The notes under the pieces: model-generated
What the model saw: only the letters and a program-made list of their open reading frames with translations
The model's database searches: none
What the model was told of the DNA's origin: nothing
Shown here: piece after piece, positions 1,244 to 63,373 of the stretch
Layout: every line of letters begins with the position of its first letter
Position numbering within the stretch: the stretch's first letter is position 1
Translations under genes and position numbers: made by a program
Source: Bacteroidaceae bacterium
GTDB taxonomy: Bacteria > Bacteroidota > Bacteroidia > Bacteroidales > Bacteroidaceae
Assembly: GCA_024398435.1 (NCBI GenBank)
Contig: JAKSJD010000010.1
Location: 19,635 to 83,634 of the forward strand
Length of the DNA: 64,000 nucleotides
Reading direction: 5' to 3'

Positions 1244-1361
1244 GCTCTAAAACCTAAAACATCTGGCTCTAAAACCATAATTATGTGCATTGCGGTAAAT
1301 AATTATGTCAATATTATTAATAATTATGTACATTATTAATATTAATTATGTACAATATTTT
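1244..1361. repeat. 22-bp-period direct repeat array (copy 1 of an AT-rich dispersed repeat)
   Basis: GCTCTAAAAC starts at 1244 and 1266 (22 apart). TAATTATGT then starts at 1278, 1300, 1321 and 1343 (22, 21 and 22 apart). From 1266 to about 1361 the sequence is nearly the same as 42942-43037, with about 5 differences in 97 bases, including the same 21-base step. It is a dispersed, non-coding repeat with internal 22-bp periodicity. Confidence 0.85.
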
Positions 1362-1468
1362 ACTTTTACACCTATTAAAATCATAAAATGCAGCCACAGG
1401 AATGGGAAAATGATGCTAAGGACGAAGTATTATGAAGGATGCACAAAGAAGAATGAAAACGAAGATTG

Positions 1469-21964: not shown

Positions 21965-22453
21965 ATGAGACACAATAAGAAATTCAATCATCTGAGTCGT
22001 AAGGCATCTCACAGAGCTGCAATGTTGTCAAACATGGCAACTTCATTGATTCTTCACAAGAGAATTACAACGACTCTTCAGAAGGCTAAAGCCCTTCGCG
22101 TATATGTAGAGCCATTGATTACAAAGGCTAAGGACGATACAACTGCTTCACGTCGTGTAGTATTCAGCTATTTGCAGGACAAGTATGCTGTTACAGAGCT
22201 CTTCGGCCCTGTTGCTACAAAGGTGGGCAACCGTCCAGGCGGTTACACTCGTATCATTAAGCTTGGCAAGCGCCAGTCTGATGATGCTGATATGGCTTTC
22301 ATTGAATTGGTTGACTTCGATGAGAACATGGCTAAGGTAGAAAAGAAGGTTACTCGTACACGCCGTTCAAAGAAGTCTGCACCAAAGGCAGAGGCTCCAG
22401 TAGAAGCACCTGCTGAAGCAGAAGCTCCTGTAGAAGAGAAGACTGAAGAATAA
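21965..22453 (+). CDS. rplQ: 50S ribosomal protein bL17 with acidic Ala/Pro/Glu tail
   Basis: L17 of the 50S subunit; 162 residues. The ~120-residue core starts [20 protein letters not shown] and includes [21 protein letters not shown] tail from about residue 130 begins basic ([14 protein letters not shown]) and becomes a low-complexity repeat of Ala, Pro, Glu and Val ending VEEKTEE. Such extensions are known in Bacteroidota L17, but their role is not. It is the last gene of the locus; a strong terminator follows 22 bases later. Confidence 0.95.
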
Positions 22454-22475: not shown

Positions 22476-22507
22476 AACCGCATCCTATTTTGGGGTGCGG
22501 TTTTTTT
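22476..22507 (+). terminator. Intrinsic terminator of the ribosomal locus
   Basis: A ten-pair stem (AACCGCATCC at 22476-22485 with GGGTGCGGTT at 22493-22502, one T-G wobble) has a 7-base loop and is followed by further T residues to 22507. Confidence 0.92.
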
Positions 22508-22563
22508 GTTTGATTGCATCAATATATTTGCATTCAAAAAGATTATTATGTTTGGCATAAAAC

Positions 22564-22651
22564 CTTATAAGAAATGGGTCGGAGTCTTATAAGAAAATGG
22601 GTCAAACCTTATAAGAAATTGCCCTGTTTCTTATAATGTATTTTCGGGGGC
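22564..22651. repeat. 22-bp-period direct repeat array B1 (four units)
   Basis: CTTATAAGAAA (last unit CTTATAATG) starts at 22564, 22586, 22608 and 22630, exactly 22 apart. The first 11 bases of each unit are well conserved and the rest drifts (ATGGGTC in units 1 and 2). Confidence 0.85.
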
Positions 22652-22661
22652 AGAAATAGAC

Positions 22662-22749
22662 CGCGTTCCATGTGGCAAAACATCGCGTTCCATGAGGTAA
22701 AACATCGCGTTTCTGAAGGTCAAACAACGCGTTCTTTTTTCGTGGGTAA
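22662..22749. repeat. 22-bp-period direct repeat array B2 (four units)
   Basis: CGCGTT starts at 22662, 22684, 22706 and 22728, exactly 22 apart. Units 1 and 2 share CGCGTTCCATG and AAAACAT. The sequence is unrelated to the array just upstream although the period is the same. Confidence 0.85.
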
Positions 22750-22947
22750 ATTATGCTTTTTGCTATTGGACGAAAATAGGCATTCGAAGTGTTGGGAAAT
22801 GAAACAAGGTGGTAACTTGGTAACATGGTAACAAATAGCCATTGCGGAATAAGTGTCGAAAGATGTATTTTCTCGGTTTTGAAGATGAAATGACGCATAT
22901 ATTTTATTATTTTGTTAAAATATATAAATTCATTCGAAAATTTTGTG

Positions 22948-42897: not shown

Positions 42898-43045
42898 GCT
42901 CTGTTTTATCTTTTTCCTTGTTCCAAAACCTTAAACACATTGCTCTAAAACTATAATTATGTACGTTGCGGTAAATAATTATGTCAATATTTTTAATAAT
43001 TATGTACATTATTAATATTAATTATGTACTATATTTTAGTTTTGT
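42898..43045. repeat. 22-bp-period direct repeat array (copy 2 of the AT-rich dispersed repeat)
   Basis: Unit starts are 42898 (GCTCTGTTTT), 42920 (GTTCCAAAAC) and 42942 (GCTCTAAAAC), all 22 apart. TAATTATGT then starts at 42954, 42976, 42997 and 43019 (22, 21, 22). From 42942 to 43037 it matches 1266-1361 at about 95 percent. Confidence 0.85.
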
Positions 43046-43451: not shown

Positions 43452-44840
43452 ATGAATACTCTATTCGACAAAATATGGGATGCACACGTTGTTCAGTGTG
43501 TTGAAGACGGTCCTACCCAGTTGTATATCGACCGCCTGTATTGTCATGAAGTTACAAGTCCTCAGGCATTCGATGCATTGCGCGACCGAGGCCTCAAGGC
43601 TTTCCGTCCAAAGCAGGTATATGCAATGCCCGACCATAACACTCCAAGCGATCAGCAGGAAGTGATAAACGATCCGGTAGGTCGCAAGCAGGTGGAAACT
43701 CTGAAGAAGAATTGTGAAGAGTTTGGCATCAACCACTTTGCAATGGGCACTAAGGACAATGGCATCATTCATGTGGTAGGTCCGGAGAAAGGTCTTTCTT
43801 TGCCAGGAATGACAATCGTTTGTGGCGATTCCCATACAAGTACACATGGAGCTGTAGGAGCATTGGCAATGGGCATTGGTACGAGTGAGGTTGCAGAGGT
43901 ACTTGCATCACAATGTATCCTCCAACAGAAGCCAAAGTCGATGCGTATCAATATTGAGGGAGAGCTTCAGCCAGGAGTAACAGCCAAGGATGTAGCCCTC
44001 TATATCATGGCAATGATGACCACTTCGGGTGCAACAGGTTATGCAGTGGAATATGCAGGTTCGGCTATCAGAAGTCTGTCGATGGAAGGCCGTCTCACAC
44101 TTTCTAATCTCTCAATCGAGATGGGTTCGCGTGCCGGACTTATAGCTCCTGATGAGAAGACAATCGAATACCTCAAGGGCAGGGAATATGCTCCAAAGGG
44201 AGAGGCATGGGACAAGGCAGTGGCTTATTGGAAGACATTGAAGAGCGATGACGATGCAGTGTTTGATAAGGAAGTGACTTATCGTGCAGAGGACATCACT
44301 CCTCGAATCACATACGGAACAAATCCAGGTGCTGGAATTGCAATCGATGGCAATATTCCTACACTTGATGAAATACCAGAGGCAGAGAAGGCAGGATTCC
44401 TCTCTCAACTCGATTACATGCAGTTCACTCCAGGCGAGCATCTCGAAGGCCATCCAGTGGATTATGTGTTCCTTGGAGCTTGTACAAATGGCCGCATCGA
44501 GGATTTCCGTGCTTTTGCATCAGTAGTGAAAGGCAAGAAGAAAGCAGAGAATGTAGTCGCTTGGCTTGTGCCAGGTTCATGGCTTGTTCGTCAGCAAATC
44601 ATCGATGAAGGTATAGACAAGATTTTGGAAGAGGCAGGTTTCGAGCTCCGACTCCCTTCTTGTTCGGCTTGTTTGGCAATGAATCCAGACAAAGTCCCAG
44701 CAGGTAAGTTGGCTATATCTACCTCAAACCGCAACTTTGTTGGTCGTCAAGGTCCAGGTGCACGCACTGTCCTTGCAAGTCCGCTCACAGTGGCCGCAAG
44801 TGCAATTACAGGTGTTATCACCGACCCAAGGACAGTTTAG
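43452..44840 (+). CDS. leuC: 3-isopropylmalate dehydratase large subunit
   Basis: LeuC with LeuD isomerises 2- to 3-isopropylmalate in leucine synthesis; 462 residues. Aconitase-fold signatures are [20 protein letters not shown], the [4Fe-4S] ligand segments [13 protein letters not shown] and [13 protein letters not shown], and [20 protein letters not shown]. It is the first gene after the leader; leuD starts 49 bases later, with a short 7-bp-based tandem repeat in between. Confidence 0.97.
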
Positions 44841-44869
44841 AGTTTAGAGATTAGAGTTTAGAGATTAGG
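44835..44869. repeat. Short tandem repeat at the leuC-leuD junction
   Basis: GTTTAGAGATTAGA (44842-44855) is repeated as GTTTAGAGATTAGG (44856-44869), preceded by a half unit GTTTAGA that contains the leuC stop codon. Confidence 0.75.
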
Positions 44870-44889
44870 GATTATTGAAAGAATATAGT

Positions 44890-52020: not shown

Positions 52021-52120
52021 TGTCTTAATCCAGAAAGGATCAGGAGAAAAAACATGTATGGCCAGTTCTGAAAGTTGAAACACATGGGAGAATTTTATGT
52101 TTTCTGTTGAAGAATAAATC

Positions 52121-52272
52121 GTACTTAACGTTTGGCACGATTGTACTCAGCGTTTGGTATGATTGTACTTAGGGTTTGGTACGATTGTACTCAGCATTTG
52201 GTACGATTTATTATTCTTGACGTTTTGGGTTTTTAAGCAAGGAACATAAGGTTTTTAAGCAAGGAGTTTTAT
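52121..52272. repeat. 22-bp-period direct repeat array C
   Basis: GTACTYAG-type units start at 52121, 52143, 52165 and 52187 (exactly 22 apart), each followed by TTTGGYAYGATT and identical at most of the 22 positions. Two units of another sequence, GTTTTTAAGCAAGGA, start at 52229 and 52251, again 22 apart. It is the best-preserved array in the window. Confidence 0.92.
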
Positions 52273-61997: not shown

Positions 61998-62156
61998 TAA
62001 AAAATGCAGGATGCAGGATGCAGAATGCAGGATTTATTTATTATAAAGCTCCAAGTTTAAAGTTCAAAAGTATTAAATTGTACATTGACTCCGTCGAACT
62101 AAAAAGTCTATATCGCGAGCCGAAGGCAAGAAAGATATAAAAAATGCAGGATGCAG
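61991..62156. repeat. 26-bp direct repeat plus 7-bp tandem units
   Basis: AAAGATATAAAAAATGCAGG followed by ATGCAG occurs at 61991-62016 and again at 62131-62156. Next to the first copy, the 7-base unit ATGCAGG runs about four times (62004-62032). Confidence 0.85.
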
Positions 62157-62584: not shown

Positions 62585-63109
62585 TTATTCGCCTTCCTGT
62601 TCGTTGCCGCCGCCTTGGCCGCCACCGCCACCACCAGAGTTGTCTGGAGCATAGAGTTCCATAGATGACTGGTTGTTCTTCTCAGCTGAGCGGAGGAGTG
62701 CCTGGTTGGCACGAAGGCTGACATTTTCGAATGAGCACTCTTCACGGAAGTTCTTAGTCTTGACAGAGTTCTTGAACTTGAGAGTGACCTTCACGATGTT
62801 CTCTGCGGTGAAGTCGGTAGCTTGTGCAGTACCGTTCTTCACGTTCTGAATCTTTGGAAGGAATGTTCCGAGGTCGCCGAGTTCGACAGCCTTAGAGTCC
62901 ATTGCGAGTTCCTTGATGCATCGGATTGCCATGGTGAGGACTGCATAGATGTCGCCCTTGTTGTACTTGCAGTCGTGGTTCGACATGTGCTCTGCGAACT
63001 GGTCGAGAGAGAAGGTCTCTGCGATTTGGAGGTTTCCGCGATAGCGGGTAGTGTTTGCGTAGGTGCCGAGCGAATGCTTCATCTTACCTACTGAATAGCG
63101 TATTGCCAT
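62585..63109 (-). CDS. HU-family DNA-binding protein with glycine-rich tail (HU-HIG type)
   Basis: This 174-residue protein of the Bacteroidota HU-like group has a HU fold extended at the N-terminus (MAIRYSVGKMKHSLG; HDCKYNKGDIYAVLTMAIRC) and a segment for the DNA-binding arms (VELGDLGTFLPKIQNVKNGT). Its C-terminal tail is SGGGGGGQGGGNEQEGE. Such proteins occur in many copies per genome with a neighbouring smalltalk gene. Their DNA-binding role is presumed. A promoter at 63377-63408 gives it a leader of about 260 bases that contains REP-like and 22-bp repeats. Confidence 0.88.
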   Translation of the reverse strand: MAIRYSVGKMKHSLGTYANTTRYRGNLQIAETFSLDQFAEHMSNHDCKYNKGDIYAVLTMAIRCIKELAMDSKAVELGDLGTFLPKIQNVKNGTAQATDFTAENIVKVTLKFKNSVKTKNFREECSFENVSLRANQALLRSAEKNNQSSMELYAPDNSGGGGGGQGGGNEQEGE

Positions 63110-63272: not shown

Positions 63273-63285
63273 GAGTTGAAAAACT

Positions 63286-63373
63286 CTTGCGAGTCGTGAG
63301 CTATTTTCTTGCTAGAAATAGGCCTCTTTCTTGCTAGAAATGCACTCATTCCTTGCTAGCTTTTCTTAACTCA
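63286..63373. repeat. 22-bp-period direct repeat array D (four units)
   Basis: CTTGC(T/G)AG starts at 63286, 63308, 63330 and 63352, exactly 22 apart; units 2 and 3 share CTTGCTAGAAAT. Downstream parts of the units differ. It ends next to the promoter box at 63377. Confidence 0.85.

Follow-up and report, generated by a model that had tools for sequence, protein, structure and literature searches.

Intergenic arrays with a constant 22-bp step and changing unit sequence in Bacteroidaceae and related genomes

Described repeats and the arrays of the window

The nearest published repeats found in related bacteria are BrickBuilt and PINSR. In the parts of its description available to us, BrickBuilt is a MITE reported from Porphyromonas gingivalis and P. 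gulae, a single family in which a 23-nt unit is repeated 1 to 22.8 times with a leader and a tail with inverted ends, and with 4-bp target duplications at some sites (PMC4596501). The same parts present it, like the arrays described here, as an imperfect, spacer-less tandem repeat that is intergenic, dispersed, found in the same order and predicted to form long stem-loops (PMC4596501). PINSR appears in the available portion of its report as a 188-bp repeat of Prevotella intermedia and P. nigrescens with 177-184 copies, no terminal inverted repeats and about three quarters of its positions common to two strains (PMC4755523). Compared by description, it resembles our arrays in being a non-coding, intergenic, lineage-specific repeat and differs in being one 188-bp sequence, for which that portion mentions no internal period (PMC4755523). 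REP palindromes, which are likewise small palindromic intergenic repeats of high copy number, carry GTAG or CGTC tags, with GTAG REPs accompanying RAYT genes, in the sections of the source at hand (PMC3733652). The present arrays differ in that no Y1 (PF01797, RAYT-type) transposase was found in five array-rich genomes (G000, which contains the window; the sister species G003 and G015; G012; and G014), although these are 63-90% complete and a gap could hide one; Y1 matches were obtained in 6 of 17 genus genomes. RAYT transposition is therefore unsupported in the array-rich genomes. An explanation by one known repeat family, which the initial annotation had named as a refuting outcome, was not borne out, given this lack of a Y1/RAYT-type gene, the 23-nt unit of BrickBuilt and the absence of any Rfam match at gathering score in the window, by which we mean the whole 64-kb stretch of DNA analysed. 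A CRISPR array was rejected because the units are contiguous, without spacers.

Arrays of comparable geometry are formed by lambda OL/OR and the 22-bp iterons of plasmids, in which a few tandem pseudo-palindromic or direct-repeat sites lie about two helical turns apart, the protein is known and the loci are few. Our arrays have a constant step and, in G003 and the mosaic class described below, oriented sites with unlike arms, but many other arrays have no detected dyad, and G015 has no unlike-arm signal; they occupy tens to hundreds of chromosomal loci, and their reader is only putative. The DNA-uptake-sequence dialects of Neisseriaceae offer another parallel, a short signal spread over the whole genome whose design is retained although related species use different versions; unlike the 22-bp-phased arrays, these dialects are single or paired 10-12-mers. 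No report of a fixed 22-bp period in this group was found among the matches listed in literature searches, which covered open-access papers and few subscription ones.

Two arrays had initially been noticed after rplQ, and both are borne out, with four units each exactly 22 bp apart, as is the recurrence of this step at 1244-1370, 42898-43042, 52121-52265 and 63283-63369 (Table 1). The best LeuC matches among named genomes came from uncultured rumen and gut Bacteroidaceae/Prevotellaceae. About 173 bp separate the last array of the window from a gene of the HU-HIG type (HU-related, DNA-binding; window 62585-63109, minus strand).

Table 1. Arrays and neighbouring features of the window
Feature	Position	Strand	Details
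AT-rich composite element	1244..1370	.	GCTCTAAAAC units (starts 1244 and 1266) followed by 22-bp units of AATAATTATG type
rplQ (ribosomal protein L17)	21965..22453	+	gene preceding the arrays
Terminator-like hairpin with T run	22476..22507	+	after rplQ, before first array; read by eye
Mosaic-class array, 4 units	22560..22645	.	unit starts 22564/22586/22608/22630, CTTATAAG, last unit CTTATAAT; TATA cores at 22566/22588/22610/22632
Mosaic-class array, 4 units	22650..22739	.	unit starts and CGCG cores at 22662/22684/22706/22728
AT-rich element, second copy	42898..43042	.	upstream of leuC
GTAC-family array, 4 units (52121-52208)	52109..52216	.	complementary A/T-rich ends
Two GGTTTTTAAGCAAGGA copies, 22 bp apart	52228..52265	.	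directly after GTAC array
Mosaic-class array	63283..63369	.	CTTGCTAG cores

Occurrence of the step, array families and position relative to genes

The sample of G000 (2.316 Mb in 32 contigs, 77.6% complete) comprised the window and 40 further stretches, 862 kb in all, of which 92,805 bp in 310 segments outside ORFs of at least 130 codons were treated as non-coding, and a cluster was defined as a stretch with 25 of 36 bases repeating at a given lag. Lag 22 gave 52 non-coding clusters, against 1, 0, 2 and 1 at lags 20, 23, 24 and 25 and a mean of 0.0 in ten dinucleotide shuffles. The proposed excess over lags 18-26 was not refuted, with 22 clusters at lag 21 and 0-4 at each of the others, and the 23-nt unit of BrickBuilt has no counterpart here (0 clusters at lag 23 versus 52 at lag 22). 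The other sizeable lags were 21, 14 (14 clusters) and 28 (8); many of their clusters resemble microsatellites of 7 bp, and a separate CGTCGTGA-type family adds to lag 21. Such microsatellites (AGTTTAG, ATGCAGG and others) were seen at window 44834-44874 and 62004-62033 and at C23:150894. A separate 21-bp-step family of CGTCGCGACG-like palindromes (C1:70718, C1:141207, C28:9835 and C28:143881) is the clearest second period of the G000 sample. A cruder ORF mask left 35 clusters in non-coding and 3 in 'coding' DNA, one of the latter being the 22650 array, which falls within a 98-aa minus-strand ORF (22602-22898) taken to be spurious. Judged by cluster length, 21, 21, 7, 2 and 1 arrays hold about 3, 4, 5, 6 and 7 units, respectively, and together they cover approximately 4.8% of the sampled non-coding DNA (4,426 of 92,805 bp, hand-summed). 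The arrays are real and go well beyond a peculiarity of this one stretch of DNA.

The initial annotation held that units differ completely between arrays, so that spacing is conserved and sequence is not. Within G000 this is wrong, as four dispersed families account for nearly all arrays, and already in the window the arrays at 1244 and 42898 are the same AT-rich element, while those at 22564, 22662 and 63286 form one mosaic class with common half-sites. At a threshold of at least 17 of 22 bases, 50 of the 52 arrays match one or more of the others, composition and chance inflating the AT-rich links and some of those between families; sorting by eye gave 5 GTAC, 7 ATACGA, 13 AT-rich and 25 mosaic arrays and 2 others. 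The mosaic unit consists of a self-complementary core (CGCG or TATA) flanked by recurring half-sites (AGAAAT, ATGTTT, GTTCG, CTTCG), and the two half-sites are nearly always unlike, being symmetric in 2 of 62 units versus 8.6 expected, a count in which units of one array are non-independent and half-site types are author-defined. GTAC arrays have four units at all ten loci read, and three more, known from match positions, show four matches at 22-bp steps. Copying of units from local sequence, another early suggestion, is rejected, because one genome carries the same units at many loci and the sister species share inner arms and differ in core. Phase-locking between adjoining arrays of different type is not general either, as the offset is 30 bp in the window and 50 bp at C1:35836-36021, though at C23:153789-153947 steps of 21-23 bp continue through a core change.

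Between species and genera, conserved spacing with unconserved sequence is borne out, with unrelated units in different genomes. The pattern CGCG-N(12-24)-CGCG-N(12-24)-CGCG matched 15 of 17 genus genomes, and those listed matches with visible repeats mostly span 48 bases, or two 22-bp steps, with units that differ by genome, although many other listed matches look like chance. A search for three successive GATATC found matches in 8 of the 201 family genomes. G003 by itself has 397 such triplets on each strand; the ten places listed for it each span 50 bases, which again corresponds to two 22-bp steps, while some other listed matches show other spacings. In three pooled samples (944 kb of named Bacteroidaceae-side loci, 391 kb of genus samples and 353 kb of 20 other family genera), counting only 'clean' clusters, which exclude those with a shorter inner period, we found 23, 23 and 7 clusters at lag 22, versus 2, 4 and 4 at lag 21, 1, 1 and 0 at lag 23, and 7, 3 and 1 at lag 11. 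The arrays recur in Bacteroides, Phocaeicola and Prevotella loci and, within the 20-genera sample, in 5 genera; no lag-22 cluster was found in 23 outer named loci (429 kb) or in class and phylum genomes together with E. coli (450 kb). Dyad symmetry exceeded that of column-shuffled units at p<=0.05 in 13/52 and 11/26 arrays and was undetected at this level in 39/52 and 15/26. A step that stays constant while sequence changes by species suggests that spacing matters more than sequence. Other periods were noted in passing: steps of 23 bp in Muribaculaceae (L115:5376-5515) and 21 bp in Tannerella (L112:2276-2453), at loci of neighbouring families, and an array with an 11-bp unit, GGGACGCTTTT, at L200:5682-5771 (genome G099).

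The arrays avoid the 100 bp before start codons. For the 49 of 52 G000 arrays with both neighbour genes callable, 8% of start-codon distances are below 100 bp versus 30% under random placement (p=1.5e-4), and the avoidance is also found in G003 (16%, 20 arrays) and G015 (12%, 16 arrays), versus 36%. Stop-codon distances below 100 bp are in excess in G000 (51% versus 33%, p=0.025) and without clear excess in G003 (48% versus 39%) and G015 (33% versus 40%). The arrays had been thought to lie mostly between a terminator and the next promoter, but flanking genes are divergent, co-directional or convergent, so such placement is no rule; a terminator was looked for only after rplQ, by eye. Divergent genes flank 19 of the 49 G000 arrays.

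Different cores in sister species

G003 (to which locus L128 belongs, at 100%) and G015 are approximately 92% identical over a collinear 6.4 kb, and their units differ in all six letters of the core, GATATC in G003 (98 units) and TGCGCA in G015 (24 units), core letters that were fixed by the search. The inner arms are common to both, with three positions on each side and the same alternates (GA[G/C] before the core and [C/G]T[C/T] after it), while outer positions are alike only in part. Between such arms, the core is GATATC in 68 of 71 cases in G003, and TGCGCA leads in G015 with 21. Arm complementarity in the G003 unit falls below that of shuffles at pairs -1/6, -4/9, -5/10 and -6/11 but not at -3/8, pair -5/10 being Watson-Crick in 10 of 98 units versus 38.7 in shuffles; the 24 units of G015 show no such lack of complementarity. 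Most units of a G003 array share one orientation; relative to co-directional genes, arrays point with and against transcription equally often (6:6). A/T tracts of the kind expected beside intrinsic terminators were scored as inward brackets around the arrays; the ratios, 17:3 in G003, 9:8 in G015 and 44:32 in G000, are significant only in G003.

In one gap, read by eye, both cores occur in the same frame. In G003 a single GGGTGCGCACCC and four GATATC units stand at 22-bp steps, where G015 carries four units of the TGCGCA type, of which the final one reads TGCGCG, and G014 has two GAGTGCGGAGTC units; the TGCGCA unit 22 bp before the GATATC run of G003 stands where G015 has its first TGCGCA unit. 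The three TGCGCA sites found in G003 less than 70 bp from a GATATC run lie at -22, +44 and -69. The gap after rplQ likewise holds GATATC arrays in G003, TGCGCA and another unit type in G015, and TGCGCA in G014, with different arrays in G000 and G012, while the other 9 of 14 rplQ loci, each read over up to 700 bp, reach at most 23/36 at lag 22. G005, G009 and G010 (L138, L140 and L137) have no 22-bp array in this gap, and G009 and G010 none at lag 22 in 40 kb each, making these three genomes possible array-poor comparisons. At L147:9288-9505 of G015, read by eye, the unit type changes and the 22-bp frame is kept; the first 11 bases of these units are similar (TCTCGAACATG, TCTCGGGCTTG) and the second 11 differ.

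Whether arrays keep their gene gaps was examined by mapping. Under stricter conditions from G003 to G015, 10 arrays mapped and 6 had an array in the counterpart gap (two in one gap), as against 2 of the 8 that mapped among 24 array-free control gaps (Fisher p=0.19, not a significant difference in this small sample). Looser mapping gave 12 of 22 arrays from G003 to G015, 8 with an array (two in one gap, and one 76% mapping that may be paralogous), 7 of 18 in the reverse direction, 6 with an array, and 5 of 22 from G003 to G014, 3 with an array; automatic pairing of collinear gaps yielded only 15 gaps, 3 with an array. These counts are suggestive only of arrays keeping their gaps between sister species.

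Competing explanations and implications

Among the explanations considered, DNA-binding sites rank first, mobile minisatellites next, then RNA structure for some families, and neutral duplication last. We tentatively favour reading the arrays as tandem, helically phased, putative DNA-binding sites in which the step would be under selection and the core would turn over. Each site would be an oriented unit of 22 bp that, in the clearest families, has two unlike arms flanking a short self-complementary core (4-6 bp), and consecutive sites, about two helical turns apart, would allow proteins on neighbouring sites to touch. What selection would maintain is the step, together with a small number of sites in each array; the recognition core would change along with its protein, and sites would then be replaced genome-wide, unit by unit and in frame, to give a species 'dialect', a replacement process that one well-read locus suggests. 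In favour of this reading are the 22-bp step with its limits in the genomes sampled, the excess of dyad symmetry, the unlike arms in G003 and the mosaic class, the prevailing orientation of units in G003 arrays, the inner arms that sister species share around different cores, the TGCGCA unit in frame with GATATC units and the avoidance of start codons. Of the initial suggestions, a spacing-sensitive DNA-binding protein and chromosome-structuring elements are both still candidates. Several unrelated families in one genome would, however, need several proteins of the same geometry, and 33-bp steps would be expected to be common if helical phase alone mattered, so that the clean clusters at lag 33 in the pooled samples (only 1, 1 and 3) count against binding sites; no binding protein or candidate gene for the units was found. 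The arrays with undetected dyads, the G015 units with no lack of arm complementarity, the non-significant gap comparison and the even split of array directions also speak against this reading.

The dispersed families fit mobility equally well. Non-autonomous mobile repeats, that is, minisatellites inside MITE-like elements such as BrickBuilt, of which each lineage amplifies its own and whose making or movement sets the 22-bp step, are nonetheless a somewhat unlikely source of the arrays. Dispersal is evident in the 13 GTAC arrays of G000 (our own count from match positions) and the GATATC triplets of G003, the AT-rich element is similar past its tandem part, and related bacteria offer published precedents in BrickBuilt (PMC4596501) and PINSR (PMC4755523), as far as the available parts of these reports describe them. 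CTATAG...GTTTTG-like inverted ends adjoin 6 of the 7 ATACGA arrays, with both ends at one, although 27 of 34 matches to this motif at up to 3 mismatches lie away from any array, and GTAC arrays have short complementary A/T-rich flanks. Against mobility, no end motif common to the families was seen, ends having been compared chiefly at ATACGA and GTAC arrays, no Y1 transposase was found in the five array-rich genomes, and one step is common to unrelated families. Furthermore, simple insertion does not predict core exchange between sisters or both cores in frame in one array.

Two turns of A-form RNA also span 22 bp, and the arrays might be transcribed into multi-unit hairpins that adjust mRNA ends or serve as substrate for a double-strand-specific RNase, but such a basis is improbable. 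The best fold has z < -3 in 5/5 GTAC, 7/7 ATACGA, 17/21 G003 and 9/16 G015 arrays, but in only 2/25 mosaic and 3/13 AT-rich arrays and 0/2 others; in the window, the GTAC array folds as a single long hairpin (z -6.9 on the plus and -5.1 on the minus strand), and the array at 22650..22739 is without an RNA fold (z -0.2 and -0.45). With mosaic and AT-rich arrays mostly unfolded, and with unlike arms, which reduce self-complementarity, in two lineages, RNA hairpins offer no general explanation, and an RNA function is retained only as a candidate for GTAC and ATACGA. The GTAC arrays look most like a structured element, having four units throughout, a long hairpin in most loci and the same strand more stable in 10/10, with 87 G-U versus 18 A-C oppositions on that strand, although some of the difference between strands comes from their G-T-rich composition, with means of -19.6 and -10.6 in shuffles. 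The ATACGA arrays lie near stop codons (6/7 stop distances below 100 bp), but GTAC arrays are mostly between divergent genes (8/10 loci versus 31% under random placement, one of the two exceptions, L002, depending on a doubtful ORF), where readthrough transcripts would be unexpected.

Functionless minisatellites, in which slippage or unequal recombination favours intergenic 22-bp duplications, are very improbable: neighbour units are more alike than distant ones (identity falling from 0.69 at lag 22 to 0.61 at lag 44 and 0.51 at lag 66 across 22 arrays, which had been picked by lag-22 identity) and promoter regions are avoided, as would be expected of tolerated insertions, but in-place duplication leaves unexplained the units common to several loci, the constant four units of GTAC arrays and the one step over unrelated sequences.

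In extension of the binding-site reading, it is quite possible, in our tentative judgement, that these are clade-wide Bacteroidaceae elements that inherit their frame and not their sequence, with a few sites at an invariant 22-bp step, in which the palindromic core is swapped genome-wide, unit by unit and in register, between sister species while inner arms and some positions persist. If this is true, the arrays would represent a system of sequence dialects in which the geometry is the conserved rule, recognised by a putative reader protein. Repeats are usually found and named by sequence, and sequence searches would miss a class conserved only in its step. If a protein does read the arrays, G003 and G015 would provide a natural experiment with the same inner arms and step and a different core, and their reader proteins should accordingly differ in core-contacting residues.
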